Positions 651 through 43,907 of a stretch of 44,245 bases of DNA are shown piece after piece. The notes under the pieces were generated by a model. The model searched no databases. It had not been told where the DNA came from and saw only the letters and a program-made list of their open reading frames with translations. A program made the position numbers and the translations under genes. The first letter of the stretch is position 1. Every line of letters starts with the position of its first letter. This DNA is from Desulfobulbus propionicus (lineage in GTDB: Bacteria > Desulfobacterota > Dissulfuribacteria > Dissulfuribacterales > DYOW01). The DNA lies in the NCBI GenBank assembly GCA_020720325.1, contig DYOW01000006.1:1-44245 (forward strand), in the 5' to 3' direction.

Positions 651-656
651 GCTTTT

Positions 657-880: not shown

Positions 881-910
881 TTGACAGGTATTATATTTAT
901 TATTTATATA
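881..910 (+). promoter_or_regulatory. dnaN promoter
   Basis: A perfect TTGACA at 881-886 is followed, after 18 bases, by TATATA at 905-910. It lies just upstream of the TAAGGAG ribosome binding site (935-941) of dnaN and probably drives dnaN-gyrB. Confidence 0.65.
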
Positions 911-948
911 TTTAAATAAATTTAAAATTAATTATAAGGAGTTAATCA

Positions 949-2094: not shown

Positions 2095-2109
2095 TAAAAG
2101 AGGAATAAA

Positions 2110-4494
2110 ATGTCAGAAGATTATAAAGCAGAAAGTATAAAGGTTCTTTCAGGTCTTGACGCGGTTAGAATGAGACCTGCCATGTATATTGGAAATACAG
2201 GCATAGAAGGTTTCCATCACCTTGCATATGAAATTATAGACAACAGCATTGACGAGGCGCTGGCTGGTTTTTGCAATAAAATAATTGTCATATTAAATGA
2301 TGACAACAGCATAACCATTGAAGATAACGGAAGGGGTATTCCTGTTGAAATGCATCCAACCGAAAATATCCCGACCCTCGAGGTGGTTTTGACCAAACTT
2401 CATGCAGGTGGAAAATTTGATAATTACACCTATAAGGTTTCAGGCGGTCTTCATGGCGTTGGCATATCTGTTGTAAATGCCCTGTCTGATATACTTGATG
2501 TTGAGGTTTACAGAAATAATAGAATATATTTTCAAAAATATTCAAAGGGATATCCCATAACAGAGCTTAAGGAAATGGGTAAAACCAATAAAAACGGAAC
2601 AAAAGTCACCTTTAAGCCTGATAATGAGATTTTTAAGGAAACAAGCGAATTTAATTATGATATTCTCCATGCAAGATTAAGGGAACTCGCATTTTTAAAT
2701 CCATTTCTTACAATAGAGCTGATAGATTCTTTTAATGATAAAAAAGAGGAATTTAAGTATGAAGGAGGTCTTATATCTTTTGTTGAGTCATTAAATTCCA
2801 ATAAAGAGCTTGTCACTGAAAATGTTATCAGCATTTCAGGCGAAAATAATGACACTGTGATTGATGTGGCGTTTCAGTATAATAGCGGTTATTCGGAAAA
2901 AATTTTGAGTTTTGTTAATAATATCAGGACAAGGGAAGGCGGAACCCATGAGGTTGGTTTCAGACAGGCGCTTACCAAATGTATAAATAAGTATATTTCC
3001 GATGATATTGTCCCCAAAAATATGAAGGAAAAAATTGAGGGCGATGATGTAAGAGAAGGGCTGACCGTTGTTTTATCAGTAAAAATACCAAATCCCCAGT
3101 TTGAAGGTCAGACAAAGACAAAACTTGGCAATAATGAGGTAAGATATTCTGTTTTTTCCTTTGTAAGCGAAAAATTATCCAGATTTCTTGAGGAAAATCC
3201 CTCTGTTTCAAAGAAAATATTATTAAAAATCGTTGAAACCGCAAGGGCAAGGGAGGCTGCGAGAAAGGCAAGGGATTTAACAAGAAAATCCGGAGCCATG
3301 GATTTTTCAATGGCAGGAAAACTTGCGGATTGTCAGGAAAAAAACCCTAAAAAAAGAGAAATTTTCATTGTTGAGGGTGATTCTGCTGGGGGCAGCGCCA
3401 AACAGGGAAGGGACAGGAAATTTCAGGCGATACTGCCACTTCGCGGAAAAATTATGAATGTTGAAAAGGCAAGGCTTGATAAAATTCTTTCAAGCGATGA
3501 AATAAAACATATAATATCAGCCCTTGGAGCTGGAATCGGACTTGATGGTTTTGATATTGCCCAGTTAAAGTATCATAAAATAGTGATTATGAGCGATGCT
3601 GACGTTGACGGCTCGCATATAAGGACATTAATCCTGACATTTTTTTACAGGCAGATGTTTCCGCTTCTCGATGAGGGCATGTTATATATAGCCCAGCCCC
3701 CTTTATACAGGATAGCCTTTGGGAAAAATGAGGTTTATATGAAAAATGACCATGAATTAAACCTCTTTCTCCTTGACAGGATTATAAAGGACTTAAAAAT
3801 TAAATTTGAAGATTCTGAAGAAAGTTTTTTTGGAGATAAATTAAAAGAAGTTCTCTCTTCTTTATTCAATTTGAATGATAATCTTGATTTATTTGAAAAG
3901 AGAAATATAAATAAAGAATTATTGTTATTTTTAATGCAAAAAGAGATATTTTCGTCAAAAATATTTGAAGACACTTTTTTTATTGAATCTTTTATTTTAG
4001 AAATTCAAGACATAGGATTTAAGGTTTCAAATATTAAAAAGGAAAATGACTTAATTTTTGAAATCACAATAAAGCCCAAAGATATTGTTTCATCCAAAAT
4101 AATCTTAAATCCTGATTTTATCAAACAAAATGACTATAAACAGCTTGTTAAGTTTTATAAAACAATAAAACCATATTTAAATAAGAAATTATCTGTTATC
4201 AGGGAAAATCAGATTGCAAAAGAATATAGCAATCTGTTTGAAGTTGCGAAAATCCTTAAACAGGAGGCGCAGAAAGGCATATCAATACAGAGATACAAAG
4301 GTCTTGGCGAGATGAACCCAGAGCAGTTGTGGAAAACCACAATGGATCCTGAAAGCAGGACTCTTTTGAAGGTCACATTAAATGACGCTGAAGAGGCTGA
4401 AAAAATGTTCACTGTATTAATGGGTGAAAAGATTGAGCCAAGAAAGGATTTTATCTATAGTCATGCCTTAGAGGTCAAAGAGCTTGATATATAA
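2110..4494 (+). CDS. gyrB: DNA gyrase subunit B
   Basis: GyrB is the ATPase and TOPRIM subunit of gyrase, which introduces negative supercoils with GyrA. It is 794 residues, the long Gram-negative form rather than the ~640-residue form. The GHKL ATPase carries DNGRGIP and GGLHGVGISVVNAL. The transducer carries QTKTKLGN. The TOPRIM motif EGDSAGGSAKQGRDR lies near residue 423, with the metal-binding DAD in MSDADVDGSH near 497. The tail contains QRYKGLGEMNP near 728. Residues of about 560-715 form the domain inserted in TOPRIM and are more AT-rich and less conserved. Start ATG follows GAGG at correct spacing. Confidence 0.97.
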   Translation: MSEDYKAESIKVLSGLDAVRMRPAMYIGNTGIEGFHHLAYEIIDNSIDEALAGFCNKIIVILNDDNSITIEDNGRGIPVEMHPTENIPTLEVVLTKLHAGGKFDNYTYKVSGGLHGVGISVVNALSDILDVEVYRNNRIYFQKYSKGYPITELKEMGKTNKNGTKVTFKPDNEIFKETSEFNYDILHARLRELAFLNPFLTIELIDSFNDKKEEFKYEGGLISFVESLNSNKELVTENVISISGENNDTVIDVAFQYNSGYSEKILSFVNNIRTREGGTHEVGFRQALTKCINKYISDDIVPKNMKEKIEGDDVREGLTVVLSVKIPNPQFEGQTKTKLGNNEVRYSVFSFVSEKLSRFLEENPSVSKKILLKIVETARAREAARKARDLTRKSGAMDFSMAGKLADCQEKNPKKREIFIVEGDSAGGSAKQGRDRKFQAILPLRGKIMNVEKARLDKILSSDEIKHIISALGAGIGLDGFDIAQLKYHKIVIMSDADVDGSHIRTLILTFFYRQMFPLLDEGMLYIAQPPLYRIAFGKNEVYMKNDHELNLFLLDRIIKDLKIKFEDSEESFFGDKLKEVLSSLFNLNDNLDLFEKRNINKELLLFLMQKEIFSSKIFEDTFFIESFILEIQDIGFKVSNIKKENDLIFEITIKPKDIVSSKIILNPDFIKQNDYKQLVKFYKTIKPYLNKKLSVIRENQIAKEYSNLFEVAKILKQEAQKGISIQRYKGLGEMNPEQLWKTTMDPESRTLLKVTLNDAEEAEKMFTVLMGEKIEPRKDFIYSHALEVKELDI

Positions 4495-4523
4495 TAATTA
4501 TAAATATTTTTAGTGGTTTTTTT

Positions 4524-4727
4524 ATGGAATGTAAAAAAGAACAAAATCTTAAGAATTGCAAATGCACATATGAATCATGCAATAGAAAAGGCATTTGCTG
4601 TGAATGTATTTCCTATCACTTAAAATCCAGACAGCTTCCCGGATGCTGCTTTCCTAAAGATGCTGAAGCCACATATGACAGGAGTTTTGAATATTTTGCA
4701 AGGCTTGTGACAGAAAAAAAGGTCTGA
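4524..4727 (+). CDS. Small cysteine-rich protein, DUF6485-like
   Basis: This 67-residue soluble protein has eight cysteines in the first 42 residues (CKC, ESC, KGICCEC, GCC), a spacing suited to zinc or an Fe-S cluster. The pattern C-x-C-T-Y-x-x-C-x-R-K-G-x-C-C-x-C followed by a YDRSFEYF helix is one I associate with the DUF6485 family of anaerobes. Function is unknown. It starts 29 bases after gyrB, with no strong ribosome binding site, and may be read through from that operon. Confidence 0.7.
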   Translation: MECKKEQNLKNCKCTYESCNRKGICCECISYHLKSRQLPGCCFPKDAEATYDRSFEYFARLVTEKKV

Positions 4728-4750
4728 TTTTTTTTTATAAAGAGGAAAAA

Positions 4751-4878
4751 ATGATACCATCAAACATTAAAACAAAACTTTATTTAATCTCAAAAAAAAC
4801 CGGAAAAAAGCCAGGATATCATATAGTAAAGGCATTAAAATATTAAAAATAGGTCATAGAAAAAATATTTATAAATAA
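4751..4878 (+). pseudogene. Relic of a relBE toxin-antitoxin pair, deleted in the middle
   Basis: An ATG at 4751 after AGAGG opens a 31-codon frame ending at 4846. Its text (LISKKTGKKPGYHIVKALKY) matches the ribbon-helix-helix start of RelB-type antitoxins, but it stops where the antitoxin should run on. Another frame from 4843 to 4878 reads LKIGHRKNIYK and then stop, which matches the C-terminal end of RelE toxins. The simplest reading is an internal deletion that fused the start of relB to the end of relE. This is inference from short matches; neither product would work. Confidence 0.5.
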
Positions 4879-4887
4879 TTAAGATTA

Positions 4888-7800
4888 ATGAAAAAAAAAT
4901 TTTCTTTTAATACCCTTCGTGATAAGATAAGCATAATAATATCCTTAAACTTCCTTATTATATTTATAATATTTGCCTTTACAAATTATTTTTTATTTGA
5001 AAAATCAATAAAAAATACCATCTCTGAAAAACAATTTGAAACAATTTCTCTTTTATCCAATGATATAGAAGCAAGGCTTTTGTTGATTCATAACTCAGTC
5101 ATCGCAAGTTCCAAAACAGTCACTAAAGAAATAATATCTGATTCTGAAAAAGCCCAGAAATTTCTTGATAGTATGATAGGCTTGCATTCCATATTTGATA
5201 ATCATATTTTTTTAATTAATTCGCAGGGAAAAATAATAGCTGAATCTCCTTTTATAGGCAATGAAAGAAGGGGATTAGATATTTCGTTCAGAGAATATGT
5301 GAAAAAAACCCTTGAAACCAAAAAGCCATATATATCAGACCCTTATATAACCACCCAGGCTCACAAATCGCCTGTTATAATGCTTACAGCGCCTGTTTTT
5401 GATGAAAATGGAAAAATTATTGCAATATTATCCGGTTCTATGAATCTGTTGGGTAAAAATGCCCTTGCCAATATTAAAAATGAAAAAATTGGCATGAACG
5501 GTTATATGTATCTTATAAATACAGACAGAATTCTTGTTATTCATCCTGAAAAGGAAAGAATTTTTACATATATAAAAAAAGGTGGCAATAAACTTCTTGA
5601 CAGGGCAATTGATGAGGGTTTTCAAGGCACTGATAAAACAATAAACACTTTAGGACTTCCATTTTTAACATCTTATAAGAGATTTAATATAAAACCCAAC
5701 TGGATACTTGCGGCAGATTATCCAATAAAAGAAGCATATCAACCTATTGAAAACTTAAAAATTTTGTTGGTTTCCATCACTTTTCTACTAATTTTTTTTA
5801 TGTTTTTAATAACCCCTAAATTAATAAACTGGTTGTTGTCAAAGCTTTTAATCTTTACAAATCATGTTGCGACTGTAAATGAAAAAAAAGGAAATGACAG
5901 ACTATTTAATGTGACAGGAGCTGATGAGGTTGACACCCTTGCGACCGCCTTTAATTCAATGATTATAGAACTGGATAATCGCTTTACAGAAATAAAAGAA
6001 CGAGAGGAACAGTTTGAGTTTATTTCCACATTTGCCTCTGACATGATCTACTGGATAAAACCTGATAACACTATTTTTTATATATCCCCCAGTTGTTTTA
6101 ATATCACAGGTTACACCACCAAAGAATTTTATGATAATCCCCAGCTTATTAATGATATCATACATCATGATGATAAAGAATATTGGTTATCCTATGAACA
6201 CGGCAAAGAAGATGCCTTTGAAATAAGGATTTTGACAAAAGATAATAAAATAAAATGGGTGTCTCATATTTGCAGGGAAATTTATGATGGAAACGAGAAT
6301 TTTCTTGGCATAAGGGGAAGCAACAGGGATGTTACAAAAAACAAAACACTTGAGCTTTCCATAAAAGAGCAGGCAAAAATATTGCAAGAACTCATTGATT
6401 TAATGCCCTCCATTGTCTGCCTTAAAGATGAAGAAGGAAAATGGTTGTTGGCAAATAAGGCAATTCAGGAACTTTTTCACTTAATAAATGTTGACTATAA
6501 GGGTAAAAAGGACTCGGAACTCGCGCCATTTACCCTTTCTATATATAAAGATGCGTTTATTGCCTGTGAAAAAACTGATGAAATGACATGGAAAGCCGGC
6601 GCTGTTCAGAGAAATATTGAAATAATACCAGTTCCCGGCGCAGAGCCAAGGCAAATCGATGTGATAAAACTTCCATTGTTTAATGAAGACGGCTCAAGAA
6701 AAGGGCTTCTTATTGTTGGAATTGATATGACAGACACTTTGTTAATGCAGGAGCGTTTGAATCAGGCGCAAAAAATGGAGGCAATTGGTCAGCTTGCTGG
6801 TGGTGTCGCCCATGATTTCAATAATATATTGATGATTTTACAGGGTTATTCAGAGATTTTAGATATGAAATTAAGACATCCTGATCCTTTGAGAAAATAT
6901 GTTGAAAATATGCAGACAGCGATAAACCGTGGTTCAAGAGTTGTAAAACAGCTTATGACATTTAGCAGGAAACAATCCCTTAGGATTGAAACTTTTGACC
7001 TTAATATAATGCTTAAAGAAGTTTTGCCTCTTTTAAATAAGGCGATAAGAGAAGATATAAATCTTGAGATAAAACCAAACATTGAACCCATAAAAATAAA
7101 TGCGGACAGGGGACAGTTGGAACAGGTTCTTATAAATCTTGTTGCAAATTCAAGAGATGCCATGCCGCAGGGTGGAAAGATAAAGATTATATTAAATAAG
7201 ATTAATGTGACCCAGTCATATATAAAAAGACATGGTGAGATTAAACCAGGAAAATACGCCCAGATTTTTGTTTCAGATACAGGAAGCGGCATGGATAAAA
7301 AGGTGATTGAGCATGTTTTTGAGCCTTTTTTTACAACAAAGGAGTTTGGAAAAGGCACGGGTCTGGGATTATCCATAGTTCACGGAATAATTTGTCAGCA
7401 TAATGGTTTTATAAATATTTACAGTGAAATTGGCGTTGGGACTATCTTTAAGATTTACTTGCCGTTATTTGGGGAAGAGGGAGATTTAACCAAAGAAGAT
7501 AAAAAAGATATTCTTTATTTAAAAGGCGCGGAAACAATACTTTATGCAGAAGACGATGAACTTGTGAGGGATGCCTTAACTGCTATCCTTGAAGAATCAG
7601 GCTATAAAATTATTGAGGCAAAAGATGGGGTTGAGGCGATTGAGCTTTTTAAGCAATTTAAGGACGAGATTGATTTGTTGCTTTTTGATGTGTTAATGCC
7701 CAGAAAAAGTGGAAAAACAGCATATGATGAAATAAAAAAAATATCACCTAAAGTTAAGATTATTTTTATGAGCGGATATAATGAGGAAATTCTCGCTGAT

Positions 7801-7893
7801 GCAGGGAAGCTGGAAGAGGGTTTTGAGCTGATTGAAAAGCCGGTCACAGCAGAAGTTTTATTAAGAAAGATTTACAATATAATAGCCGGATAA
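4888..7893 (+). CDS. Hybrid sensor histidine kinase (dCache-HAMP-PAS-PAS-HisKA-HATPase-REC)
   Basis: This is a 1001-residue membrane sensor. Membrane helices lie near residues 14-36 and 287-308, with a periplasmic double-Cache ligand domain between them. They are followed by HAMP (about 310-362) and two PAS domains (about 375-490 and 500-620). The kinase core has the H box VAHDFNN with phospho-acceptor H642, the N box, DTGSGM and GKGTGLGLSIV. A C-terminal receiver has phospho-acceptor D934 in FDVLMPRKSG. There is no output domain, so signal must pass to another regulator. The ATG has only a weak ribosome binding site. The ligand is not predictable. It converges with panD across a 48-base gap. 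Confidence 0.93.
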   Translation: MKKKFSFNTLRDKISIIISLNFLIIFIIFAFTNYFLFEKSIKNTISEKQFETISLLSNDIEARLLLIHNSVIASSKTVTKEIISDSEKAQKFLDSMIGLHSIFDNHIFLINSQGKIIAESPFIGNERRGLDISFREYVKKTLETKKPYISDPYITTQAHKSPVIMLTAPVFDENGKIIAILSGSMNLLGKNALANIKNEKIGMNGYMYLINTDRILVIHPEKERIFTYIKKGGNKLLDRAIDEGFQGTDKTINTLGLPFLTSYKRFNIKPNWILAADYPIKEAYQPIENLKILLVSITFLLIFFMFLITPKLINWLLSKLLIFTNHVATVNEKKGNDRLFNVTGADEVDTLATAFNSMIIELDNRFTEIKEREEQFEFISTFASDMIYWIKPDNTIFYISPSCFNITGYTTKEFYDNPQLINDIIHHDDKEYWLSYEHGKEDAFEIRILTKDNKIKWVSHICREIYDGNENFLGIRGSNRDVTKNKTLELSIKEQAKILQELIDLMPSIVCLKDEEGKWLLANKAIQELFHLINVDYKGKKDSELAPFTLSIYKDAFIACEKTDEMTWKAGAVQRNIEIIPVPGAEPRQIDVIKLPLFNEDGSRKGLLIVGIDMTDTLLMQERLNQAQKMEAIGQLAGGVAHDFNNILMILQGYSEILDMKLRHPDPLRKYVENMQTAINRGSRVVKQLMTFSRKQSLRIETFDLNIMLKEVLPLLNKAIREDINLEIKPNIEPIKINADRGQLEQVLINLVANSRDAMPQGGKIKIILNKINVTQSYIKRHGEIKPGKYAQIFVSDTGSGMDKKVIEHVFEPFFTTKEFGKGTGLGLSIVHGIICQHNGFINIYSEIGVGTIFKIYLPLFGEEGDLTKEDKKDILYLKGAETILYAEDDELVRDALTAILEESGYKIIEAKDGVEAIELFKQFKDEIDLLLFDVLMPRKSGKTAYDEIKKISPKVKIIFMSGYNEEILADAGKLEEGFELIEKPVTAEVLLRKIYNIIAG

Positions 7894-7912
7894 TTTTTTT
7901 TTTAATACTGAC

Positions 7913-7932
7913 GGTAGGGACGGGTCGCTACC
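7913..7932. terminator. Possible hairpin between convergent kinase and panD
   Basis: GGTAG (7913-7917) and CTACC (7928-7932) can pair around a 10-base loop in a locally GC-rich patch. The patch stands out from the AT-rich flanks. A T-run lies before it on the plus strand, not after, so terminator function is weakly supported; it may be a fragment of a dispersed repeat. Confidence 0.2.
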
Positions 7933-7941
7933 AGGCGCTAC

Positions 7942-8316
7942 TTAAGACAAACTCCGTTGTTTTTTCACTTCATTTATTGAATTATCATTATTTACATAAA
8001 CCAGAACGGCAGAAAAATTTTTTATTTCTTCTTCGGAAAAAAAACCGTATGATGCAATGATAATGATATCTCCTTTTTCCGCAAGCCTTCCCGCGGCGCC
8101 ATTTATGCTTATGGTTCCGGAATTTTCAGGCGCTTCAATAATGTAGGTTTCAAATCTCTGTCCGTTATTCACATTATAGATGGAAACCCGCTCAAATGGC
8201 ATTAAATCAGCCTCTTTTATGAGTTTTTTATCAATTGCAATGCTTCCCTCGTAACTGATGTTTTTATCAGTGACAGTCGCCCGGTGTATTTTTGATTTTA
8301 GCATTATTCGCTGCAT
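7942..8316 (-). CDS. panD: Aspartate 1-decarboxylase proenzyme
   Basis: PanD makes beta-alanine from L-aspartate for pantothenate. The 124 residues match family length. The self-processing site is YEGS, with the canonical Gly24-Ser25 bond. Cleavage leaves a pyruvoyl group on the alpha chain. INGAAGRL and GDIIIIASYG are standard family segments. The gene overlaps the end of panC by 13 bases in the same direction, indicating translational coupling. Confidence 0.96.
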   Translation of the reverse strand: MQRIMLKSKIHRATVTDKNISYEGSIAIDKKLIKEADLMPFERVSIYNVNNGQRFETYIIEAPENSGTISINGAAGRLAEKGDIIIIASYGFFSEEEIKNFSAVLVYVNNDNSINEVKKQRSLS

Positions 8317-9149
8317 AGTTGTGCGTTATCTATTAATCTCGTGTTTCCAAGCCATACCGCAATGGCTATAATTGTGTTATTGTCAATAATATCTGTTTTT
8401 TTAAGGGTAAATTTATTTCCTATAAAAATATAGTCTATCTTAAATTCTTTAAAAACAGAAAGACCTTTTATAATAAAATTTTCAACATTGACAGCCTGTT
8501 TTTCCCCGTTTTTTATAATATTTAAAGCCTGCAGAAGGGTTTTATAAATATTTGGAGCAATGTCAAATCGTTGTTTTTCTGTAAGGTAAGCATTTCTTGA
8601 GCTGAAGGCAAGTCCGTTTTCTTCCCTTATTGTGGGATGACCTATAATTTTTATATCCATATTAAGGTCTGCCACCATCTGCCTTATTATTGCAAGCTGC
8701 TGAAAGTCCTTTTCACCGAATATTGCAAAATCAGGTCTTACTATATTAAAAAGTTTGCAGACAATTGTGGCTACTCCCTTAAAGTGTCCTGGTCTTGAAT
8801 CACCGCATAATCCTTTTTGCAGTTCCATCACCTCAATCCATGTCTGATAATTTTCAGGATATATTTCATTGGAGTCAGGGATAAAAACACAATCTGTTCC
8901 GGCATTTTTTGCTTTTTTTAGGTCGCCTTCCATATCTCTTGGATATTTGTCAAGGTCTTCGCCGGGTCTGAACTGGGAGGGATTAACATAGATGCTTAAA
9001 ACACTTTTGTCAGCGATTTTTTTTGCATGTTCCAAAAGCGTTACATGTCCTATATGTAAAAATCCCATTGTGGGAACAAAGGCGATTGAATTATTTTGAC
9101 GCTCTTTTGACCATTGTTTCATTTCATAAATAGTATTAATGAGTTCCAT
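8304..9149 (-). CDS. panC: Pantothenate synthetase
   Basis: PanC joins pantoate and beta-alanine with ATP, through a pantoyl-adenylate. It is 281 residues, normal length. It has PTMGFLHIGH with the nucleotide-binding HIGH at residues 32-35, FGEKDFQQL, and SSRNAYL (the KMSKS-equivalent loop). It is followed at once by panD, so the substrate supplier and user are cotranslated. panB is not in the window. The MITE-like palindrome at 9188-9325 lies immediately upstream of the start and could affect its promoter. Confidence 0.96.
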   Translation of the reverse strand: MELINTIYEMKQWSKERQNNSIAFVPTMGFLHIGHVTLLEHAKKIADKSVLSIYVNPSQFRPGEDLDKYPRDMEGDLKKAKNAGTDCVFIPDSNEIYPENYQTWIEVMELQKGLCGDSRPGHFKGVATIVCKLFNIVRPDFAIFGEKDFQQLAIIRQMVADLNMDIKIIGHPTIREENGLAFSSRNAYLTEKQRFDIAPNIYKTLLQALNIIKNGEKQAVNVENFIIKGLSVFKEFKIDYIFIGNKFTLKKTDIIDNNTIIAIAVWLGNTRLIDNAQLCSE

Positions 9150-9187
9150 ATATTATTAATATATTATTTTTAAAAATTTTAAATAAG

Positions 9188-9325
9188 TAATCTCTGATTA
9201 AATAAATTTATTTTATAGAAAACACCCCGTCCCTGCGGGACACTCATCTAAAAGAGGGGAATTCTCTTTCTTAGAAGGGGTGGCAGGCGAAGACTGACGG
9301 GGTAGTCATATTTAATCAGAGATTA
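9188..9325. mobile_element. MITE-like palindromic element
   Basis: A 138-base element is bounded by perfect 16-bp inverted repeats: TAATCTCTGATTAAAT (9188-9203) and its complement (9310-9325). Inside is a second inverted pair, ACCCCGTC (9224-9231) and GACGGGGT (9296-9303), and a small perfect hairpin GTCCC-TGC-GGGAC (9229-9241). The core is GC-rich against AT-rich flanks. It codes for nothing. The form fits a non-autonomous transposable element or a dispersed palindromic repeat. No target-site duplication is obvious. Confidence 0.6.
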
Positions 9326-9491
9326 GATAAAAAATTTTTTTTTCTTTATATTATTGTTTTTTTTGCACAATTAAAATAAGTTATATTATTATAAGTTATA
9401 AATAAAAATATCCTGAGCATGGATGATAAAAACCTTTTAATACAAAGAGAAAAATATCTTATTGCATTAAATAAAACAAGAGAGGCTGTCC

Positions 9492-9749
9492 TGCAAATAT
9501 GAAATCATCATTGTCAGACCTGAAGCTGAAGAAGACTTAAAGGAAGCCTTTTCTTGGTATGAGGATAAGAGGTTAGGTTTGGGACATGATTTCCTCCTGC
9601 AAGTTAATTCAGGACTTAACTTCATCATGAGAAATCCAGAAATTCATTCGATTGAGCACAAAGGATCAAGAAAACACATTATCAAAAGGTTTCCATACAA
9701 AATCATTTATTTTGTCGAAGAAGAAAAGATAATAGTCCTTTTTTATTAA
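9492..9749 (+). pseudogene. Decayed ParE/RelE-type toxin gene
   Basis: From the KYEIIIVRPEAEEDLKEA start region through the Y-[KR]-I-[IV]-Y core (FPYKIIYFVEEEKIIV), the frame reads as a ParE-type toxin of the RelE superfamily. The start codon is missing: the expected ATG before AAATAT is TGC. The frame stops after VLFY, where intact members continue with the conserved H-x-R-R-x-P-x-x-W ending. No antitoxin lies upstream; the 27-residue frame at 9419-9502 ends at the parE start region but is not a recognisable antitoxin. I treat it as non-functional. Confidence 0.65.
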
Positions 9750-9755
9750 ATTTTC

Positions 9756-9785
9756 TTGACAAATACAGTATTATTTTATTATAAT
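9756..9785 (+). promoter_or_regulatory. Consensus promoter upstream of mazEF
   Basis: TTGACA (9756-9761), an 18-base spacer and TATAAT (9780-9785) give perfect consensus hexamers. It points at mazE from about 130 bases away, directly after the parE relic, and may have been the relic's own or the next gene's promoter. Confidence 0.55.
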
Positions 9786-9856
9786 TTTTTTTAATGTGGA
9801 ATCGGTATAAAAATAAATGTTAGCAGTCAAGATCAACACCCCTGCCTATTATGGTA

Positions 9857-9896
9857 TTGACATAAGTATAAACTAATTGCATAATACATGTATTAT
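9857..9896 (+). promoter_or_regulatory. mazEF promoter with overlapping palindromic operator
   Basis: TTGACA (9857-9862), a 17-base spacer and CATAAT (9880-9885) form the proximal promoter. A perfect 16-bp palindrome ATAATACA-TGTATTAT (9881-9896) covers the -10. This is the usual arrangement for autorepression by a ribbon-helix-helix antitoxin, here MazE, alone or with MazF. Confidence 0.6.
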
Positions 9897-9917
9897 ATAA
9901 ATTGCATGAGGTGAATT

Positions 9918-10178
9918 ATGTCTGGAGTCAAAACCGCAATATCGCTGGATGAAGAATTATTTGAAAAGGTCAACAAACTTGCGAATGAATTGCATGTTTC
10001 TCGCAGCAGGCTCTTTACCATCGCGGTGAAAGATTATTTGAAAAAACAAGAAAACCAAACACTACTTGCCCAACTAAATGATGCTTATAGTGACCAACCG
10101 GATGAAGAAGAAATAAAAATTTCAGCATCTATGAAATCCAAGCGCCGCAAAAATATAGGAAAAGAGAGATGGGAATAG
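9918..10178 (+). CDS. mazE: MazE-like ribbon-helix-helix antitoxin
   Basis: This 86-residue antitoxin neutralises the downstream MazF-type endoribonuclease and probably represses its own promoter. The N-terminal half (AISLDEELFEKVNKLA, then SRSRLFTIAVKDYL) is a ribbon-helix-helix DNA-binding fold of the MazE9/ChpI type rather than the AbrB fold of E. coli MazE. The acidic and basic C-terminal tail would wrap the toxin. A GAGGTG ribosome binding site fixes the ATG. It overlaps the toxin by 10 bases. Confidence 0.85.
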   Translation: MSGVKTAISLDEELFEKVNKLANELHVSRSRLFTIAVKDYLKKQENQTLLAQLNDAYSDQPDEEEIKISASMKSKRRKNIGKERWE

Positions 10179-10522
10179 AGCAAGGTGATATTTACTGGAT
10201 TGATTTTGGCGAGCCTTCCGGCTCTGAGCCAGGTTATCGTCACCCTCACATCGTCATCCAAAATAATTTATTTAACGCGAGCAAAATCAATACAGTGGTA
10301 GTTTGTGCCCTCACCTCAAATCTCAAAAGAGCTCAGGCGCCTGGCAATGTTTTACTGAATAAAGGAGAAGCCAACCTGCCCAGGAAAAGTGTCGTTAATA
10401 TTTCTCAAATTTACACGGTCAACAAGGTTGATTTGGCTGAAAAGATTGGTAAGGTATCAGAAAAGAGATTTAACGAAATTCTTGAAGGCATTAAGTTACT
10501 CACGGAGCCAAGAGAAGTTTAA
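10169..10522 (+). CDS. mazF: MazF/PemK-family endoribonuclease toxin
   Basis: This 117-residue sequence-specific mRNA interferase has the SH3-like barrel of the CcdB/PemK family. GDIYWIDFG opens the fold. The catalytic arginine is R24 in GYRHPHIVIQ, and the Thr/Ser pair is 49-50 in ALTSN. It ends at full length and looks intact. Start ATG lies inside the antitoxin end, a coupled translation typical of the family. An attC-like site begins 26 bases after the stop, which makes the pair look like an integron cassette. Confidence 0.92.
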   Translation: MGIEQGDIYWIDFGEPSGSEPGYRHPHIVIQNNLFNASKINTVVVCALTSNLKRAQAPGNVLLNKGEANLPRKSVVNISQIYTVNKVDLAEKIGKVSEKRFNEILEGIKLLTEPREV

Positions 10523-10548
10523 CAATCTGAAATAAAGCAAAAAAAACT

Positions 10549-10637
10549 GCTAACAAAGGTATTAAGCTGACCACTAGAATGGTTTGTGTGCTATCGGGCA
10601 AGTTCTTCGGCGTGGCAGCTTATACTTGGCATTAGGT
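10549..10637 (+). repeat. attC-like integron recombination site
   Basis: This 89-base imperfect palindrome has attC architecture. The outer box CTAAC (10550-10554) faces ATTAGG (10631-10636). The inner box TAAGCTG (10563-10569) pairs with CAGCTTA (10616-10622), and the stem continues with CCAC (10571-10574) against GTGG (10612-10615). Base A10570 is left unpaired, which matches the extrahelical base that orients integrase on attC. The core ATTAGGT departs from GTTRRRY at the first position, so activity may be reduced. It lies directly after a toxin-antitoxin pair. No integrase gene is in the window. Confidence 0.6.
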
Positions 10638-10664
10638 TTTTAAGAGAACCAAAGGATTAAAAAT

Positions 10665-10766
10665 ATGAATATAATATTTGATATTGCTTCAAATATTGCA
10701 ACACCTTTAGTATTAGGTGGATTTTTTGCCGGGAGTGTTCATAATCTTGTATTATTTAATCTGTAA
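10665..10766 (+). CDS. 33-residue hydrophobic small ORF
   Basis: A short frame opens with ATG seven bases after AAAGGA and encodes one likely membrane helix (ATPLVLGGFFAGSVHN). It begins about 28 bases after the attC-like site, where the next cassette's ORF would be expected. Its stop lies within the receiver-domain fragment, so it may be the truncated start of a longer cassette gene. I do not recognise it, and expression is unproven. Confidence 0.3.
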   Translation: MNIIFDIASNIATPLVLGGFFAGSVHNLVLFNL

Positions 10767-10912
10767 ATCCGGAAGCAAAGGTTATTGTCACAAGCGGTTA
10801 TTCAACAGATCCTGTTATGGTGCATTTCAAAAATTATGGATTTGCCGGAAGGATTATAAAGCCTTTTAATATAGAAGATATAGAAAATGCCTTAAGGGAG
10901 ATTTGGGGTTAA
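10760..10912 (+). pseudogene. C-terminal fragment of a response-regulator receiver domain
   Basis: The frame reads VNPEAKVIVTSGYS, then GFAGRIIKPFNIEDIENAL, ending WG-stop. This is the last third of a CheY-like receiver: the conserved S/T at the end of beta-4 (TSGYS) and the invariant lysine of beta-5 in the KPF motif. The phospho-acceptor aspartate and everything upstream are missing. It probably remains from a hybrid kinase or regulator truncated by the insertion to its left. It overlaps the 3' end of the convergent VKOR gene. Confidence 0.7.
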
Positions 10913-11872
10913 GGGGTTATTTTTTTTTTCGTCCTCGCATTTTTTTTCGAAGGTGCAGATTCCGCCGTTATCTTCAGGAATAAAAGGATTTGCTTCGCCT
11001 TGCTGATTTACGGAATAATCGGGAATCACAAAATGGGAGCATGCCTTTGATAAATAATCTATAATTGGTTTATCACCTTTTATAAAGGTTAAACCTTCCT
11101 GTTCTTCAGCGATTAATACTGGTATCACCTTTATGTTTAAGAGACCAAGGATGGTTCTGTTGATCTCAGGGTTGTATTCATTGGTTTTTAAAATATTTTT
11201 AAAAATATCATTTGTAATCTCTTCAACCGGGTTAAAATGTATTTCACAGCTTGTGCACCCTTCAAGAACCTCGAGAACCTGTTTGCAATGGGAACAATTT
11301 TTTGAAAAGAAGAGATATGCTTTTTTTACGGGTTTTTCACAGCTTTTAATTGCATATGTTCCGTTGTTAATTGTGTTTTTGGTTATATAAGCCCTGTCAA
11401 AACCAATAAAATAAAAGGCGCTTATTTCACATAAAAGAAATAACAGGCTTTTAAAGAATTGGCTCCAACCCCATAGCATATTAAGTATAAAAACAGACGA
11501 AAAAATTATAAGACAGTATGCGCAAAATGTTTTTGCAATAAATATCTGAAATGAAAGCAGGAGTCCTTCTGTCACAATACCAACCAGGATATAAGTTTTC
11601 AACAGGGATTCGTGAATATAAAATTTTTTAAAAAAAAGAATAAGAAAGAGATAAACAGAGAAAAATAAAAGTCCCATTAAATTAATGTAAAGGGGGTTTG
11701 TTTTTATGGATTCTTCAACTATTTTACATCCTGTATTAATACAAAAAGTTTCACCTTCAATATAAGTAAAAACCGTTTGTGAGACGATAAGTAAAATAGT
11801 AAAAACCGTAATGAATAATTGAATTTTTTCACAGGGTATGGTATTTTTTTTCATAGTAAAAATATAAAACAA
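10892..11872 (-). CDS. VKOR-family disulfide-forming membrane protein with thioredoxin-like domain
   Basis: This 326-residue protein fuses a vitamin K epoxide reductase domain to a thioredoxin-like one. The VKOR part (about 1-150) has four or five membrane helices, the loop cysteine pair in FCINTGC and the active-site CAYC. The second part has the redox motif CSHC in FFSKNCSHCK, followed by two further cysteines (SCEIHF). Bacterial VKOR fusions take the place of DsbB, reoxidising a DsbA-like partner with quinone. It may start at the second ATG (codon 7), since neither has a clear ribosome binding site. It diverges from the GspE-like gene 24 bases away, so it may serve disulfide formation in exported pilins; that link is inference. 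Confidence 0.88.
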   Translation of the reverse strand: MFYIFTMKKNTIPCEKIQLFITVFTILLIVSQTVFTYIEGETFCINTGCKIVEESIKTNPLYINLMGLLFFSVYLFLILFFKKFYIHESLLKTYILVGIVTEGLLLSFQIFIAKTFCAYCLIIFSSVFILNMLWGWSQFFKSLLFLLCEISAFYFIGFDRAYITKNTINNGTYAIKSCEKPVKKAYLFFSKNCSHCKQVLEVLEGCTSCEIHFNPVEEITNDIFKNILKTNEYNPEINRTILGLLNIKVIPVLIAEEQEGLTFIKGDKPIIDYLSKACSHFVIPDYSVNQQGEANPFIPEDNGGICTFEKKCEDEKKNNPLTPNLP

Positions 11873-38005: not shown

Positions 38006-39244
38006 TCATTCCCATTGTTCCTGTTTTTCCTCCCCTTCTTCCTCCTCATAGACCTGCTCCCCAACCTCTTGCGCATTTATTTTTTGTATTTTCCCTGTGA
38101 CCTGAAGTCCGTCCAATAATTCAATAAAGCCCTTTATATAGGTTCTTATAGGCATATTTCTTGGAATTGCATCGTCTATTTCATAAAAAATTCCCATTTT
38201 ATCTTTAATATCTAAATTATATGCCAATAAATAAATATCAATTAATTTATTAAAATAATCCCTCATTTCATTTATATTGACAGGCATTAGATTTAATCCA
38301 TTTTCAAGGGCATTTTGGAAAAAAACATTAATTTTATCCCTTGCTTCAATGCCATATTCCATTTCTGCCAACTCAGGCATTAATATGCTATCATCTTTTC
38401 TCTTTCTGTTCCCCCCAAACCAGTAATAATCCTGCAAAGAAGTGGCTGACGCGCATATTGTGTAAATTGGATATTCCATATCATCAGACCAGTTAAGAAG
38501 CCAGTTTAGGTTCATATATGCCTTTAATCTTGCTTTTTTGGACAATCTTCCAAGAAGCTCCACCTCATCAATAAGCAAAACCCAGCCTTTAAAACCGCAA
38601 AATCTTACGCATTGGGCAAAAACACCAAAAAATGAACTAATATTTTCTTTCTTAAATTTGGGAATGTCCCGAAATAAAAAGTCTTTATTAATTGATTTAG
38701 CAATATCTTTAAGTTTTTTTAATGTGAATTGACCACAAGTCAATATGTCATAAAGCTCATTTCTAAATTCTGTATTATTAATTGACAAAAATAATTCAAG
38801 GATTATTAAAGGAAGCGGATGTTCATATCTTTCAAGGTTAAAAAAATGATTGCTTTTAAATTCATGAATGTTTTTTTGGGTTAATTGCCATTCAATTCCA
38901 GATATATTAGTTTTGGGAATTTTTATGTTAGAAGCTAATTCGCCAAAAAATTCATAAAAATCCTTTGAAGAAAGGCTTCTGTTTAATGTTATCCTGCTTA
39001 CAGCAAATCCTAAATCCAGCGCCTTATGTTCAACTATATTAAGAAAGTGTGATTTTCCCTGCCCATAAGTCCCCCATATCATCCTGCCAGAAGGCGCTGT
39101 GTCATGGACTTCAAATTGTTTCAGGTCATTCTCAATCTGTTTTAATAAATCAGGTCGCAAATCAGGCAAATTTCTTGTGGAGTTAATAGTTGGTATCCCA
39201 GACCTTAGAGATTCAATAATTGCAAGGGCTTTTATCTGTTCCAT
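38006..39244 (-). CDS. DUF2791/BrxD-like P-loop ATPase with intact Walker B
   Basis: This 412-residue ATP-binding protein resembles the DUF2791 (BREX BrxD-type) family. The Walker A loop is WGTYGQGKSHFL near residues 57-68 and Walker B is GWVLLIDEVELLGRL near 220-234, with both acids present. The N-terminal region (GIPTINSTRNLPDLRP) and the GxYGxGKS pattern are family-like. The C-terminus is a run of Glu and Gln (YEEEEGEEKQEQWE). I choose the ATG at 39244 over a TTG three bases earlier. It overlaps the upstream paralogue by 32 bases. No BREX gene (pglZ, brxC, brxL, brxHII) is in the window. Role likely DNA-related, possibly defence; that is inference. Confidence 0.75.
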   Translation of the reverse strand: MEQIKALAIIESLRSGIPTINSTRNLPDLRPDLLKQIENDLKQFEVHDTAPSGRMIWGTYGQGKSHFLNIVEHKALDLGFAVSRITLNRSLSSKDFYEFFGELASNIKIPKTNISGIEWQLTQKNIHEFKSNHFFNLERYEHPLPLIILELFLSINNTEFRNELYDILTCGQFTLKKLKDIAKSINKDFLFRDIPKFKKENISSFFGVFAQCVRFCGFKGWVLLIDEVELLGRLSKKARLKAYMNLNWLLNWSDDMEYPIYTICASATSLQDYYWFGGNRKRKDDSILMPELAEMEYGIEARDKINVFFQNALENGLNLMPVNINEMRDYFNKLIDIYLLAYNLDIKDKMGIFYEIDDAIPRNMPIRTYIKGFIELLDGLQVTGKIQKINAQEVGEQVYEEEEGEEKQEQWE

Positions 39245-40433
39245 CAAATTGTTCCATTGAAATCATAATTGTTTTTTCCATGATTTTTCTTTTAAGGGGA
39301 TGAATTTCATCATCAAGAAAAATTTCTTTGTTATCAGAAGATGTTTTGTTTTGTTTTAATATAGCCTCTAATTTTTCAGTTATTTCATCAAGAAAATTTT
39401 TTTCCTCCAAAGTCTCAAAGTGTGCGTCCATGTCAATGAGGTCATTAAAAGGATTAAAAAACTCATTGGAAATAATCCCTGATTGTATGCGCATCCATAA
39501 AGCCTCATAGCTCTTAAATCCCCTTTTGTCATCATACAGCATCCTTCTTTCAGATGAAAATATCATAAAAAAATTTTTTAATATTTCAGTTCTGTCAATT
39601 ATTTCCCTTATAAGTTCAAAAAAATCATTAACAGCCTTTGGCGTGTAATAAAAATGACCAAATTCATCTTTTTTACGCAAAATGTGAAGATTATCAAAAA
39701 TAATCAAAAAACCGGGCAAACCAGAAAGATTTATTAATTTTATTAGGGAATATAACCAGTTAATCGCATTGACTTTTTTTAAGGTTTCATAAATATTAAT
39801 CTCTTTTTTTTCAGATGCATATAATTTATCTCCCTTCAACCATTTAATAAATAACTCATTGATATAGTTTCCGGTCAATTTTGAATATACAGTTGAAAAA
39901 ATAAATTGCTTAAAAGACATGGCAATATCAATGTCTCTAAAGGCATTTGATATGGCGGTTCTTATTATGCTCTCTGCGCTGCCAATGGGTAATCCCTCTT
40001 TTTCTTTGATATATTCCAAAAAACAAGGGTATGAAACAAAATCTTCATCTTTATATCCCAGCAAAGCCACAACTTTCTTTGACAAAAGATTTATAATTGT
40101 TGGCACATGAATGTTTTCAGCGAGCATTTTATAGAAAGACATAACATTTGATAGTTTTACCGGATTATCTGAAAGGTCAAAATAAAGTGTTTCATAACCA
40201 AGCTTTTTAGCGTCAATTGATATTGCTCTAAGAGAATGGGTTTTGCCAGCGCCTAAATCTCCATAAATAAACTTTACCTTAGAGCCGCCTGAAAAGATAT
40301 ATTTTTCCAGATATTGCTTTTTTATTATATCAATCCATAATTCCCTGCCGCAGGTCATTTTTTCAATTATTTCATCGCTTACAGGCGGCTCTCCCATTTG
40401 AAGTCTTTGTATGTCAATACGTTGAATATTCAT
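39213..40433 (-). CDS. Second DUF2791/BrxD-like P-loop protein, Walker B glutamate lost
   Basis: This 406-residue paralogue of the downstream gene has Walker A YGDLGAGKTHSLRA at about 57-70 with K64 and T65 intact. The Walker B segment is FLIIFDNLHIL (about 242-252): D247 is kept but the expected catalytic glutamate is N248. Such a protein should bind ATP but hydrolyse it poorly. It overlaps the next gene by 32 bases, so the two are probably made in fixed ratio. It starts 24 bases after the coiled-coil gene. Family placement rests on fold pattern and pairing, and is less sure than for its partner. Confidence 0.65.
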   Translation of the reverse strand: MNIQRIDIQRLQMGEPPVSDEIIEKMTCGRELWIDIIKKQYLEKYIFSGGSKVKFIYGDLGAGKTHSLRAISIDAKKLGYETLYFDLSDNPVKLSNVMSFYKMLAENIHVPTIINLLSKKVVALLGYKDEDFVSYPCFLEYIKEKEGLPIGSAESIIRTAISNAFRDIDIAMSFKQFIFSTVYSKLTGNYINELFIKWLKGDKLYASEKKEINIYETLKKVNAINWLYSLIKLINLSGLPGFLIIFDNLHILRKKDEFGHFYYTPKAVNDFFELIREIIDRTEILKNFFMIFSSERRMLYDDKRGFKSYEALWMRIQSGIISNEFFNPFNDLIDMDAHFETLEEKNFLDEITEKLEAILKQNKTSSDNKEIFLDDEIHPLKRKIMEKTIMISMEQFDGTDKSPCNY

Positions 40434-40457
40434 TTTTAGTCTTTTTTATCCCTGACT

Positions 40458-41201
40458 TTATTTCTGATGAATTGTTAAACTTGTAAAATAAAAGCTTTCA
40501 CCTTTTTCATTGGCAATAACAAGGGCATTTTTGGGTGTTCCCTGTGTCAATTCAAATATTTTATCGTCAAAAATCATATCTGTTTCCTTTAATTTTGATA
40601 TGTCAAAACTAAAGTTATTTATGGAATATTCTTTTTTTACAGATAATTTTAAGGTAAGCATATCATATATCTTTAACAGCGACACAGGGCTTCCCCACTT
40701 AATGTCAGGGTTTTTATACTGATTTATGTTTAATATTTCATAAGAATTTAATAGCTCCCTGCAAAATTCATTTTTATTAAATGGCTTATCCATTAATTTT
40801 TTATATTCCTTGTGAATTTCAGAAACAGCGGTTTTAGGATCTAAGGTAAAAAATCTTTTCTTTTTTTTGGCATATATCATCTCGATTAGATTTTCTTTAA
40901 TATTAAAATTTATCCTAAAAGGTCCAAGCTGATATTTTGGAAATTCTCCTGACACAATAAGATTATTGTCATTAAATTCAGTTTCAATCATTTTTATATA
41001 ATCATCAGAATTAATGGATAAATTTATTTCAGCAATGGAATTTTTCAGGGTTTTTATAAAATTTTCAGAATTTGACCATAAATCTTGAATGAGAGATGTT
41101 GTATTATCAATTTTTTTATCTATATCTCTTAAGTTCCAGTTTTTTAGGTTGTGTTCCATAATACTTAATTGTTTGCTTATTTGTGATATTTCTTTTTTCA
41201 T
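40458..41201 (-). CDS. Unrecognised protein with N-terminal coiled coil, leads ATPase operon
   Basis: This 247-residue soluble protein belongs to no family I recognise. The first 75 residues are strongly helical with heptad-like spacing (ISKQLSIMEHNLKNW, then DKKIDNTTSLIQDLW), suggesting a coiled coil. A mixed alpha/beta region follows, including LIVSGEFPKYQLGPF and a basic turn AKKKKRFFTL. No catalytic motif, signal peptide or membrane helix is visible. The ATG has AAGGA nine bases upstream. Position at the head of the two-ATPase operon suggests an adaptor or DNA/target-recognition subunit; that is inference. Confidence 0.7.
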   Translation of the reverse strand: MKKEISQISKQLSIMEHNLKNWNLRDIDKKIDNTTSLIQDLWSNSENFIKTLKNSIAEINLSINSDDYIKMIETEFNDNNLIVSGEFPKYQLGPFRINFNIKENLIEMIYAKKKKRFFTLDPKTAVSEIHKEYKKLMDKPFNKNEFCRELLNSYEILNINQYKNPDIKWGSPVSLLKIYDMLTLKLSVKKEYSINNFSFDISKLKETDMIFDDKIFELTQGTPKNALVIANEKGESFYFTSLTIHQK

Positions 41202-41353: not shown

Positions 41354-42595
41354 ATGAATACCCTTGAAAAACTGAAAATCCTTTCAGGAGCTGCAAAATA
41401 TGACGCTTCATGCGCATCAAGCGGGAGCAACAGAAGAAATAACCCCAAAGGCATTGGCAACACTGCGGTTAACGGAATCTGCCATAGCTGGTCAGAGGAC
41501 GGAAGGTGCATATCTCTTTTAAAGCTCCTTTTTACAAATTTTTGCATCTATGACTGCGCCTACTGCGCCAACAGAAGAAGCAATGACATACCAAGAGCAG
41601 CATTCACTGTGGATGAAGTGGTGGATTTAACAATAGATTTTTTTAAGAGAAACTATATTGAAGGTCTTTTTTTAAGCTCCGCTGTGTTTGGCTCTCCTGA
41701 CATAACCCTTGAAAAACTTGTGCAAATAACAAAAAAACTCCGCACTGAAAGGGGTTTTAATGGTTATATCCATCTTAAAGTTATGCCAGGCGCATCTGAT
41801 ATGCTTTTTAATGAGGCAGGAAGATATGCGGACAGGTTAAGCGTAAATATTGAGCTTCCCTCAGAAAAATCCCTCATCTACATTGCCCCTGACAAGAAAA
41901 AAGAAAATATACTGCTTCCAATGGAAAAAATAAGCAAAAAAATATATGAAACAAATGAAGAGCGAAAAAAAACAAAGAAAATCCCTGTATATTCCCCTGG
42001 AGGACAGAGCACGCAGCTCATAGTTGGCGCAAGCCCTGAAGATGATAAACAGATTATGAGGCTTACAAATTCATTATATAATAAATTTCACTTAAAAAGG
42101 GTCTATTATTCAGCCCATGTAAGCGTTAATGACGACTCAAGACTTATTTTTTCCGAAAAACCAGACATGATGAGGGAACACAGGCTATATCAGGCTGACT
42201 GGCTTTTGAGGGTTTACGGTTTTAAGCTTGATGATCTGGTTTTTTCACCCGATGGAACGCTTTCAAGGGATTATGACCCCAAGATGGAATGGGCTTTCCT
42301 GAATATTCACCTTTTTCCAATGGAGATTAATAAAGTTGAATTTGAACAGCTTATCAGGATTCCGGGAATAGGATTTAGAACGGCAACCAAGATAATAAAC
42401 ACAAGAAGATTTAAAAGCCTTGATTTTGAAGACCTTAAAAAAACAGGGGCTGTGCTTAAAAGGGCAAGATATTTCATAACATGCAATGGAAAAAGATTTG
42501 ACCAGATTAAAATAGACCCGCAAAGCATTAAAACCAATCTTTTGATGTATGATAAAAAACCAAAAAGCCAGCAGCTTTCCCTTTTTGCGATGTAA
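41354..42595 (+). CDS. Putative DNA modification/repair radical SAM protein (TIGR03916-like)
   Basis: This 413-residue radical SAM protein opens with LEKLKILSGAAKYDASCASSG in two conserved halves. The cluster motif CIYDCAYC is the CX3CX2C form. HLKVMPGASD and SVNIELPSEKS follow. A helix-hairpin-helix near residue 338 (IRIPGIGFRTATKI) suggests DNA binding. The C-terminus (QQLSLFAM) resembles a clamp-binding QxxLF peptide. The family always pairs with a TIGR03915/DUF4130 protein, as here (11 bases downstream). Biochemical function is not established to my knowledge. It diverges from the ATPase operon. Confidence 0.88.
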   Translation: MNTLEKLKILSGAAKYDASCASSGSNRRNNPKGIGNTAVNGICHSWSEDGRCISLLKLLFTNFCIYDCAYCANRRSNDIPRAAFTVDEVVDLTIDFFKRNYIEGLFLSSAVFGSPDITLEKLVQITKKLRTERGFNGYIHLKVMPGASDMLFNEAGRYADRLSVNIELPSEKSLIYIAPDKKKENILLPMEKISKKIYETNEERKKTKKIPVYSPGGQSTQLIVGASPEDDKQIMRLTNSLYNKFHLKRVYYSAHVSVNDDSRLIFSEKPDMMREHRLYQADWLLRVYGFKLDDLVFSPDGTLSRDYDPKMEWAFLNIHLFPMEINKVEFEQLIRIPGIGFRTATKIINTRRFKSLDFEDLKKTGAVLKRARYFITCNGKRFDQIKIDPQSIKTNLLMYDKKPKSQQLSLFAM

Positions 42596-42606
42596 CTAGT
42601 TGCTTT

Positions 42607-43359
42607 TTGATGAATACTTTTCTTTATGACGGCAGCTTTTTTGGGCTTTTAACAGCATTAAGCCATATAACAGAACAAAATATCGGGGCTTCTGATATTA
42701 AAACCCAGGCAAATTATAAAGGTGATTTATTTTCTGAGCCAATCATTATTGAGACAGACACCCGGAAAGCCGAGGCATTTATATCAAAACTATCTAAAAT
42801 TTCCCCTGATTTTAACAGGACAATTTTATTTTCATATCATTCGGAAATTAAAGATATTGAGATAAAACTCCTTAATTTTATCAGATTTGCCTTAAATAAA
42901 AGGAAATTTCCAACTGATTATACAAATCCTGATATTAATTTTATCCTGCAAACAACAAGAAAGGTGGGGCTTGAAATCCACAGATTTAAGGGCTTATTAA
43001 GATTCAGGGAAATGGAGGACAATACGCTTTTTGCCCCAATTGCCCCGGACCATAATATAATTTTCTTCCTTGCAAAACATTTTAGTAGTCGCATTGCAAA
43101 TGAGAAATGGATTATTTTTGACACAAAGCGGCATATTGTATTAGAATGGGATACAGAGCAAATTTCCATTTATATTGATAAGGAAAGGCGCTTTATTCCC
43201 AAAAACTATGCTGAAAATGAACAGGAGATTCAAACTCTCTGGCAGGCATATTTTAAGGAAATAGCCATTCAGAACAGGAAAAATCCAAGGCTTCAAAAGC
43301 AGTTTATGCCCCAAAGATACTGGAAATATCTGACTGAGTTGCATTTTGCTATGTTTTGA
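42607..43359 (+). CDS. DUF4130/TIGR03915-family DNA metabolism protein
   Basis: This 250-residue partner of the radical SAM protein opens FLYDGSFFGLLTAL. GLLRFREMEDNTLFAPIAPDHNI, in two runs, and ERRFIPKNYAENEQEIQTLW are diagnostic of the family, which I place near uracil-DNA glycosylase-like DNA repair proteins. The end RYWKYLTELHFAMF differs from the usual ending because its last 110 coding bases (43220-43329) are duplicated downstream at 43944 and the gene now runs into inserted DNA. The core looks complete, so it may remain active. Confidence 0.87.
   Translation: MMNTFLYDGSFFGLLTALSHITEQNIGASDIKTQANYKGDLFSEPIIIETDTRKAEAFISKLSKISPDFNRTILFSYHSEIKDIEIKLLNFIRFALNKRKFPTDYTNPDINFILQTTRKVGLEIHRFKGLLRFREMEDNTLFAPIAPDHNIIFFLAKHFSSRIANEKWIIFDTKRHIVLEWDTEQISIYIDKERRFIPKNYAENEQEIQTLWQAYFKEIAIQNRKNPRLQKQFMPQRYWKYLTELHFAMF
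43220..43329 (+). repeat. 110-bp direct repeat, left copy
   Basis: Identical base for base to 43944-44053. It covers the 3' coding end of the DUF4130 gene, from AACAGGAGATT to TGGAAATAT. The two copies flank a toxin-antitoxin module; unit length from copy start to copy start is 724 bases. Confidence 0.95.
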
Positions 43360-43367
43360 TATATAAT
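43339..43367 (+). promoter_or_regulatory. Promoter for the ParD/RelE-type module
   Basis: TTGCAT (43339-43344), 17 bases and a perfect TATAAT (43362-43367) sit just inside the inserted segment. The -35 is weak. It would let the toxin-antitoxin pair be expressed wherever it lands. Confidence 0.4.
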
Positions 43368-43400
43368 AAAACAAATTATCCATTTTATGGAGGTTGCAGG

Positions 43401-43619
43401 ATGCCTACAGCAGTTCGTATTTCTGAAGATTTGGTTAATGAGGCAAGAAAAATCAGCAAAATTGACCACCGTTCCCTAACAGGTCAAATTGAACATTGGG
43501 CAAGAATCGGCAAATGCGCAGAAGAAAATCCTGATTTGACATACGATTTAATAAAAGAAATACTCATTGGAATCGAAGAGTTAAACCAGGGTGAAAAATC
43601 AGAATACCAATTGGGCTGA
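43401..43619 (+). CDS. ParD-like antitoxin
   Basis: This 72-residue ribbon-helix-helix protein resembles the ParD_like family: TAVRISEDLVNEARK is the ribbon and first helix, and SLTGQIEHWARIGK the second. The ATG at 43401 follows GGAGG by seven bases; an upstream in-frame ATG at 43356 would add 15 residues encoded at the insertion edge and is less likely. It is followed directly by the toxin and probably represses the operon. Confidence 0.8.
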   Translation: MPTAVRISEDLVNEARKISKIDHRSLTGQIEHWARIGKCAEENPDLTYDLIKEILIGIEELNQGEKSEYQLG

Positions 43620-43625
43620 TTGTGT

Positions 43626-43907
43626 ATGAAAATATATCAATCGCGTTCATTTGAACTAAAAGTCAAGAAATTCAATAAAATAGAAAAAGATAATCTGGAC
43701 AGCGAGATTAAAAAGATTGTAGAAAACCCCTCCATTGGCATTGAAAAAAAAGGAGACCTGAGGGGTATTTTTGTCTATAAATTCAAAATCAAAACCATGC
43801 TATATCTTCTTTCATATCGCCTTGTGACCGATGGGTTGGAATTAATAATGGTTGGAGCGCATGAAAATTATTATCGTGACCTCAAGTCCTATCTTAAAAA
43901 TAAATAA
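43626..43907 (+). CDS. RelE/ParE-superfamily toxin
   Basis: This 93-residue toxin is intact by length. SRSFELKVKKFNKIEKDNLDS gives the N-terminal helices in two runs. GDLRGIFVYKFKIKTMLYLLSY is the RelE-like beta core (short for members with YRIIY), and VGAHENYYRDLKSYL is the C-terminal helix. I start at ATG 43626; a TTG six bases upstream is possible. Target (ribosome-bound mRNA or gyrase) cannot be told from sequence. It lies six bases after the antitoxin stop. Confidence 0.78.
   Translation: MKIYQSRSFELKVKKFNKIEKDNLDSEIKKIVENPSIGIEKKGDLRGIFVYKFKIKTMLYLLSYRLVTDGLELIMVGAHENYYRDLKSYLKNK

Follow-up and report, generated by a model that had tools for sequence, protein, structure and literature searches.

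Three adjacent minus-strand genes of Desulfobulbus propionicus encode what appears, from sequence, to be a helicase-less branch of a modular family of BrxD-like double ATPases with a swappable partner. They lie in the window, by which we mean the whole 44,245-nucleotide stretch analysed (contig DYOW01000006.1, positions 1 to 44,245), and specify a putative adaptor protein, here called coil, followed by two ATPases, A1 and A2. Their features are as follows.

40458–41201, minus strand: coil, putative adaptor protein (247 aa; ORF list).
39213–40433, minus strand: A1, BrxD-like AAA+ protein of predicted ORC/Cdc6 type (406 aa; PF10923, E = 7e-23).
40236–40262, minus strand: A1 Walker A, GDLGAGKTH (residues 58–66; G..G.GKTH invariant in the subtype alignment).
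39690–39710, minus strand: A1 degenerate Walker B, FLIIFDN (residues 242–248; Walker motif table).
39483–39509, minus strand: A1 conserved motif YEALWMRIQ (residues 309–317; R315 invariant in the subtype alignment).
38006–39247, minus strand: A2, BrxD-like AAA+ ATPase with an acidic C-terminal tail (PF10923, E = 1.8e-16).
39047–39073, minus strand: A2 Walker A, GTYGQGKSH (residues 59–67; alignment and Walker motif table).
38564–38581, minus strand: A2 Walker B, VLLIDE (residues 223–228; Walker motif table).

The layout agrees to the base with the first-pass annotation, which had described three minus-strand reading frames with a 24-base gap between coil and A1 and a 32-base overlap between A1 and A2. 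The overlap is obtained when A2 is counted from the ATG at 39244 (412 aa); counted from the TTG start, A2 has 413 aa. Downstream of A2, with its start 9 bases on, lies nnrD, the gene for NAD(P)H-hydrate repair, which could be co-transcribed with the triad and which, judged from other genomes, appears to stand outside the triad system. The surroundings of nnrD in 12 relatives of the same order showed no synteny with the window, so that an empty insertion site is not definable. GC content and codon use do not mark the triad as foreign to the rest of the AT-rich window, and the coil gene itself is very AT-rich (25.8% GC). A promoter scan gave results no better than chance, except for one site (11/12) on the opposite strand. 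Positions 41354–43359 hold a gene for a radical SAM protein and then one for a DUF4130 protein, a pair that is usually found together and forms a putative unit of DNA repair or modification. Beyond it, on the plus strand (43356–43907), two small successive reading frames of 87 and 95 aa look, on inspection, like an antitoxin and a toxin of RelE/ParE type; the pair had no NCBIfam matches.

Both ATPases match the Pfam family PF10923 (BrxC_BrxD), A1 with 81.6 bits and A2 with 60.5 bits, above the gathering threshold of 22.2 bits, in keeping with the earlier description of paired, paralogous BrxD-like proteins that have their own adaptor. Their scores against the NCBIfam BrxD equivalog NF033438 (63.2 and 41.7 bits, respectively) fall far below the 350-bit cut-off, placing neither in that equivalog. 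In PADLOC, A1 and A2 match BrxD and SngB of Shango weakly; for SngB the E-values are 6e-10 (A1) and 2e-10 (A2), versus 2e-179 for a true SngB. The predicted structure of A1 (pLDDT 81) gave weak fold matches to RdrA, Cdc6, DnaA and ORC, and the A1 profile also matches DnaA by sequence (1.7e-5).

The two subunits differ in their catalytic motifs. In A1 the catalytic Walker B glutamate is replaced (D247-N248). Across the family, all 94 A2 proteins keep the Walker B DE pair, and all but two keep the lysine of Walker A (92/94). The DE pair of A1 is present in 61/61 members of the Ski2/other group described below, versus 1/17 of the window type and 0/7 of the Clostridia type, and A1 of the SNF2-type operons has lost Walker A as well. 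As the A2 motifs are intact and the A1 glutamate is lost, the window-clade pair probably consists of one active subunit (A2) and one hydrolysis-dead subunit (A1). The YEALWMRIQ motif of A1 is a possible arginine finger or sensor. One published reading makes BrxD an ATPase of the ORC/Cdc6 type and a possible loader of BrxHI (PMC12839542), and Orc/Cdc6 pairs in which one Walker B is disrupted have been described in other conflict systems (PMC10853773); both readings fit a pattern of one active and one inactive subunit.

The coil protein had been called unrecognised, and it has indeed no significant match in Pfam, NCBIfam or PADLOC. Its predicted secondary structure comprises a helical N-terminal half (residues 1–78), a small beta domain (84–117), further helices (122–205) and C-terminal beta strands (214–246). 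The AlphaFold model (pLDDT 88, pTM 0.63) found no match at E ≤ 0.001 among PDB folds or among viral structure predictions. Coil is conserved throughout the window-type subtype and is homologous to the first gene of the helicase-bearing operons (hhalign probability 96.9, E = 1.4e-10). A search of the open literature (subscription journals lay outside it) found no published description of the A1/A2 pair or of coil.

An A2 homologue of some kind occurs in 24 of 395 genomes of the window's phylum, and 20 of these regions, when read, revealed a recurring operon in which a gene for a protein of 270–285 aa is joined by two ATPase genes and one for a large helicase of Ski2 type. Classification of 80 scanned loci distinguished four kinds besides the window type. 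One of them, a coil-A1-A2-helicase quartet, was seen at about 40 loci with the Ski2-type helicase in view, and this helicase matches BrxHI (1.8e-88) and SngC (2e-71) in PADLOC. A Clostridia/Spirochaete subtype carries a divergent helicase that matches PbeA (4.9e-64), and the SNF2-type operons (L051, L055, L056, L265 and L266) consist of coil, A1 without Walker A, A2 and a SNF2 helicase. BrxL directly follows A2 at L070 (9181–11274) and L264 (1158–3287), other BREX genes not being in view. At L126 of Verrucomicrobiales (3–11205) the order is PglX, coil, A1, A2, a Ski2/BrxHI-like helicase, PglZ and BrxL, with PADLOC E-values of 3e-97 for PglX, 2e-224 for PglZ and 3e-256 for BrxL; we read this as a quartet embedded in a BREX operon, and possibly as an undescribed BREX layout. 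Partners are thus exchanged within the family, which is apparently undescribed as such.

Several loci depart from these layouts. Four (L040–L043, in genomes G177, G117, G149 and G082) hold A1 and A2 with neither coil nor a helicase, set among ordinary genes, and their A2 has an N-terminal extension that is Tudor/CarD-like in appearance. At L048 the coil gene is followed by three BrxD-like ATPases in a row. A conserved 185–188 aa MPIPYRDADEL protein precedes the SNF2 helicase at L051, L055 and L056. The Ski2-type helicase at L035 (6503–12385; 1960 aa) has a C-terminal region that matches DpdJ and Mokosh MkoA/MkoC.

For 188 ATPases, a tree from a short search, with SH-aLRT as its only measure of support, separates A1 from A2 (96 each) and shows mirrored subclades within the two. 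This arrangement points to an ancient duplication followed by joint diversification, making A1 and A2, as judged from the tree, ancient co-diversified paralogues. The window-type clade is supported at 99 for A1 and at 100 for A2, and it clusters together with the PbeA-like and SNF2 types (support 100 and 99), its fine placement being unsure because of long branches, both window sequences among them.

Window-type triads were found at 22 loci, the window included, in at least five phyla (Thermodesulfobacteriota, Cyanobacteriota, Bacillota, Coprothermobacterota and Atribacterota). Ten of the loci, at 36–40% identity, came from scanning genomes with the A2 profile and belong to MAGs and genomes of Bacillota, Cyanobacteriota, Coprothermobacterota and Atribacterota. 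Among 386 cyanobacterial genomes, profile searches returned eight matches, seven of them new loci and the eighth from Chlorogloea (already L062); among 399 Bacillota genomes they returned four further loci, or about 5/399 in total. The genes are contiguous, in the same order and without a helicase at every locus except L067, which begins at a contig end and is cut off there. The window itself shows the features of the type: contiguous coil-A1-A2, a supported clade, A1 without the catalytic glutamate, and no helicase. Recurrence of the same genes in the same order indicates that the triad is more than chance, and the conservation across distant genomes that had been looked for is thereby borne out. 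The distribution is sporadic and crosses phyla: the subtype is present in 1/395 genomes of the window's phylum, and 45 genomes of its taxonomic order gave no match. For each of the three genes, dN/dS lies at 0.06–0.33 in the four pairs tested, a sign of purifying selection, which argues that A1 and coil are maintained rather than decaying. Upstream of three Bacillota triads (L252, L253 and L254) lies a shared gene whose product, of ~350 aa, has a SinR-like HTH domain and is possibly a regulator, and an Hsp70 gene lies beside the L255 triad; neither gene occurs at the other triad loci.

The suggestion that the triad is a compact system of its own holds in part. It forms its own supported clade and has no resident partner; it is not an isolated invention, being one branch of a wider family in which coil-A1-A2 is joined by a partner and which at one locus lies within a BREX operon. 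The usual BREX partners, reported missing by the first-pass annotation, are indeed absent among the window genes scanned, and the triad operon encodes no nuclease, methylase, helicase or toxin. Enrichment in defence islands, by contrast, was not supported: the neighbours of 12 window-type loci gave one PADLOC match among 83 proteins, versus matches on about 2/78 control neighbours (a few of helicase type, plus MzaA), and the window-type subtype does not generally lie in defence islands. In one Bacillota genome (G990, L254/L267), the triad and its upstream HTH gene adjoin a brxF-brxC-pglXI-brxHII-pglZ-brxA operon, which can be read as Type-3-like BREX from the order and size of its genes and from weak profile matches. 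Beside loci of the other subtypes lie two BrxL, PglZ, PglX, AbiLi and PDC-S01. No relatives were found in phages (A1 query), in plasmids (A2 query) or in viral contigs by the queries used. Kinship and some of the neighbourhoods suggest a defence role as a hypothesis to which we would give about an even chance.

These observations lead us to propose that the triad is a heteromeric ORC/Cdc6-like AAA+ module, composed of a motor, a regulatory subunit and an adaptor, that controls invading DNA; we hold this reading to be evenly poised between right and wrong, a judgement that extends jointly to its horizontal spread as a self-contained AAA+ module. The active A2 and the ATP-binding, apparently non-hydrolysing A1 would form a heteromeric ring or clamp, and coil would be the dedicated adaptor that selects a target or partner. 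A molecular clamp or loader is the likely interpretation of the motifs, the co-diversification and the partner exchange. Since the sister operons carry their own partner (a helicase, BrxL or BREX effectors), the core would most likely load or license a DNA-acting effector on particular DNA. As no partner is encoded in the window-subtype operon, the complex may there work on DNA unaided, as a roadblock or sensor switched by ATP, or may recruit a host factor. Control of invading DNA would be its most likely biological role.

The same complex might instead be a chromosome-maintenance or stress factor, such as a repair or replication-restart loader that uses host helicases, and have no part in defence, which we consider somewhat unlikely. 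Window-type loci mostly sit among ordinary chromosomal genes, cyanobacteria of the Chroococcidiopsidales type keep the triad at a common site, selection on the triad is strongly purifying, and the pair-only loci without coil or helicase also lie among ordinary genes. This housekeeping role is at odds, however, with the sporadic, phylum-crossing distribution and with the ties of sister modules to BrxL and BREX genes. A bolder form of the proposed anti-invader function, which we think unlikely, is a stand-alone three-protein machine in which a half-active ORC/Cdc6-like heteromer and a new-fold adaptor would block or mark foreign DNA; the triad would then be the smallest version of a modular core that in other operons is combined with BREX, BrxL or one of several helicases.

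Nearly all sister operons have a helicase, and the triad could accordingly be half of a split system, in which the loader and the gene for its dedicated helicase lie at separate places in the genome. Three triad-bearing cyanobacteria do have an SngC-like helicase elsewhere, but two of the three helicases belong to Shango loci with their own SngB (L147, and L148 of the same layout). At L147 (3508–9382), an additional AAA+ gene lies upstream of SngA/B/C. In the window genome, which is 97.6% complete in 204 contigs, Ski2-, PbeA-like and SNF2 queries retrieved nothing beyond an ordinary RNA helicase of the DEAD-box type or marginal matches, and for BrxL there were only Lon-type proteases that match its C-terminal part; a partner gene may have been missed in this assembly. 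Genomes with the triad do not carry a PbeA-like helicase more often than genomes lacking it, and BrxL in trans shows no association (about 4/16 triad genomes versus 4/20 controls). We regard a split system as improbable. Decay of a four-gene helicase operon to a remnant would account for the missing helicase, the lost A1 glutamate, the loci that look frameshifted (L065 and L255) and the coil gene split by a transposase gene at L059, but is very improbable given intact reading frames at most loci in five phyla, low dN/dS and a well-supported clade.

Comparison with known systems places the proposed AAA+ module beside several of them. BREX Type-2 and related systems share PF10923/BrxD-like AAA+ proteins with the triad and, in the sister operons, a BrxHI-like helicase; they have one BrxD where the triad has two paralogous ATPases and an extra adaptor gene. 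PglX, PglZ, BrxC and a helicase are absent beside the triad, with no PglZ, PglX, BrxX or BrxC among the scanned genes, and the BrxL of BREX types 1, 4 and others is represented in the window genome by Lon-type matches only. Shango (SngABC) likewise has three genes, and SngB is related to A1 and A2, but it has one ATPase rather than two; the TerB-like SngA is absent from the window, coil having no PADLOC match at E ≤ 1, and so is the helicase SngC, for which related Ski2 queries give a DEAD-box RNA helicase only in the window genome. The coil-A1-A2-Ski2 quartet has homologous genes in the same order as the triad and differs in having a helicase and in keeping the A1 catalytic glutamate in all cases; we found no published description of it. 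PbeA of PbeABCD is matched by the Clostridia/Spirochaete subtype helicase, and no Pbe gene occurs in the window. PbeB, PbeC and PbeD are proteins other than coil, A1 and A2, and on this published account we rejected them as their equivalents (PMC10853773). The Orc/Cdc6 pairs, set beside the triad by description, also couple an active member with a Walker-B-defective one, but are accompanied by a KAP NTPase and lie in different mobile neighbourhoods (PMC10853773).

BrxD and SngB are components of anti-phage systems. The relatives described here would represent an ancient obligate pair with an adaptor, and their interchangeable partners, or the lack of any, imply that the core is separable. With only three proteins, the triad offers the smallest setting in which to ask whether such a core loads helicases, senses DNA or provides self-sufficient defence, and the natural loss of the catalytic glutamate from one subunit offers a direct, testable prediction.
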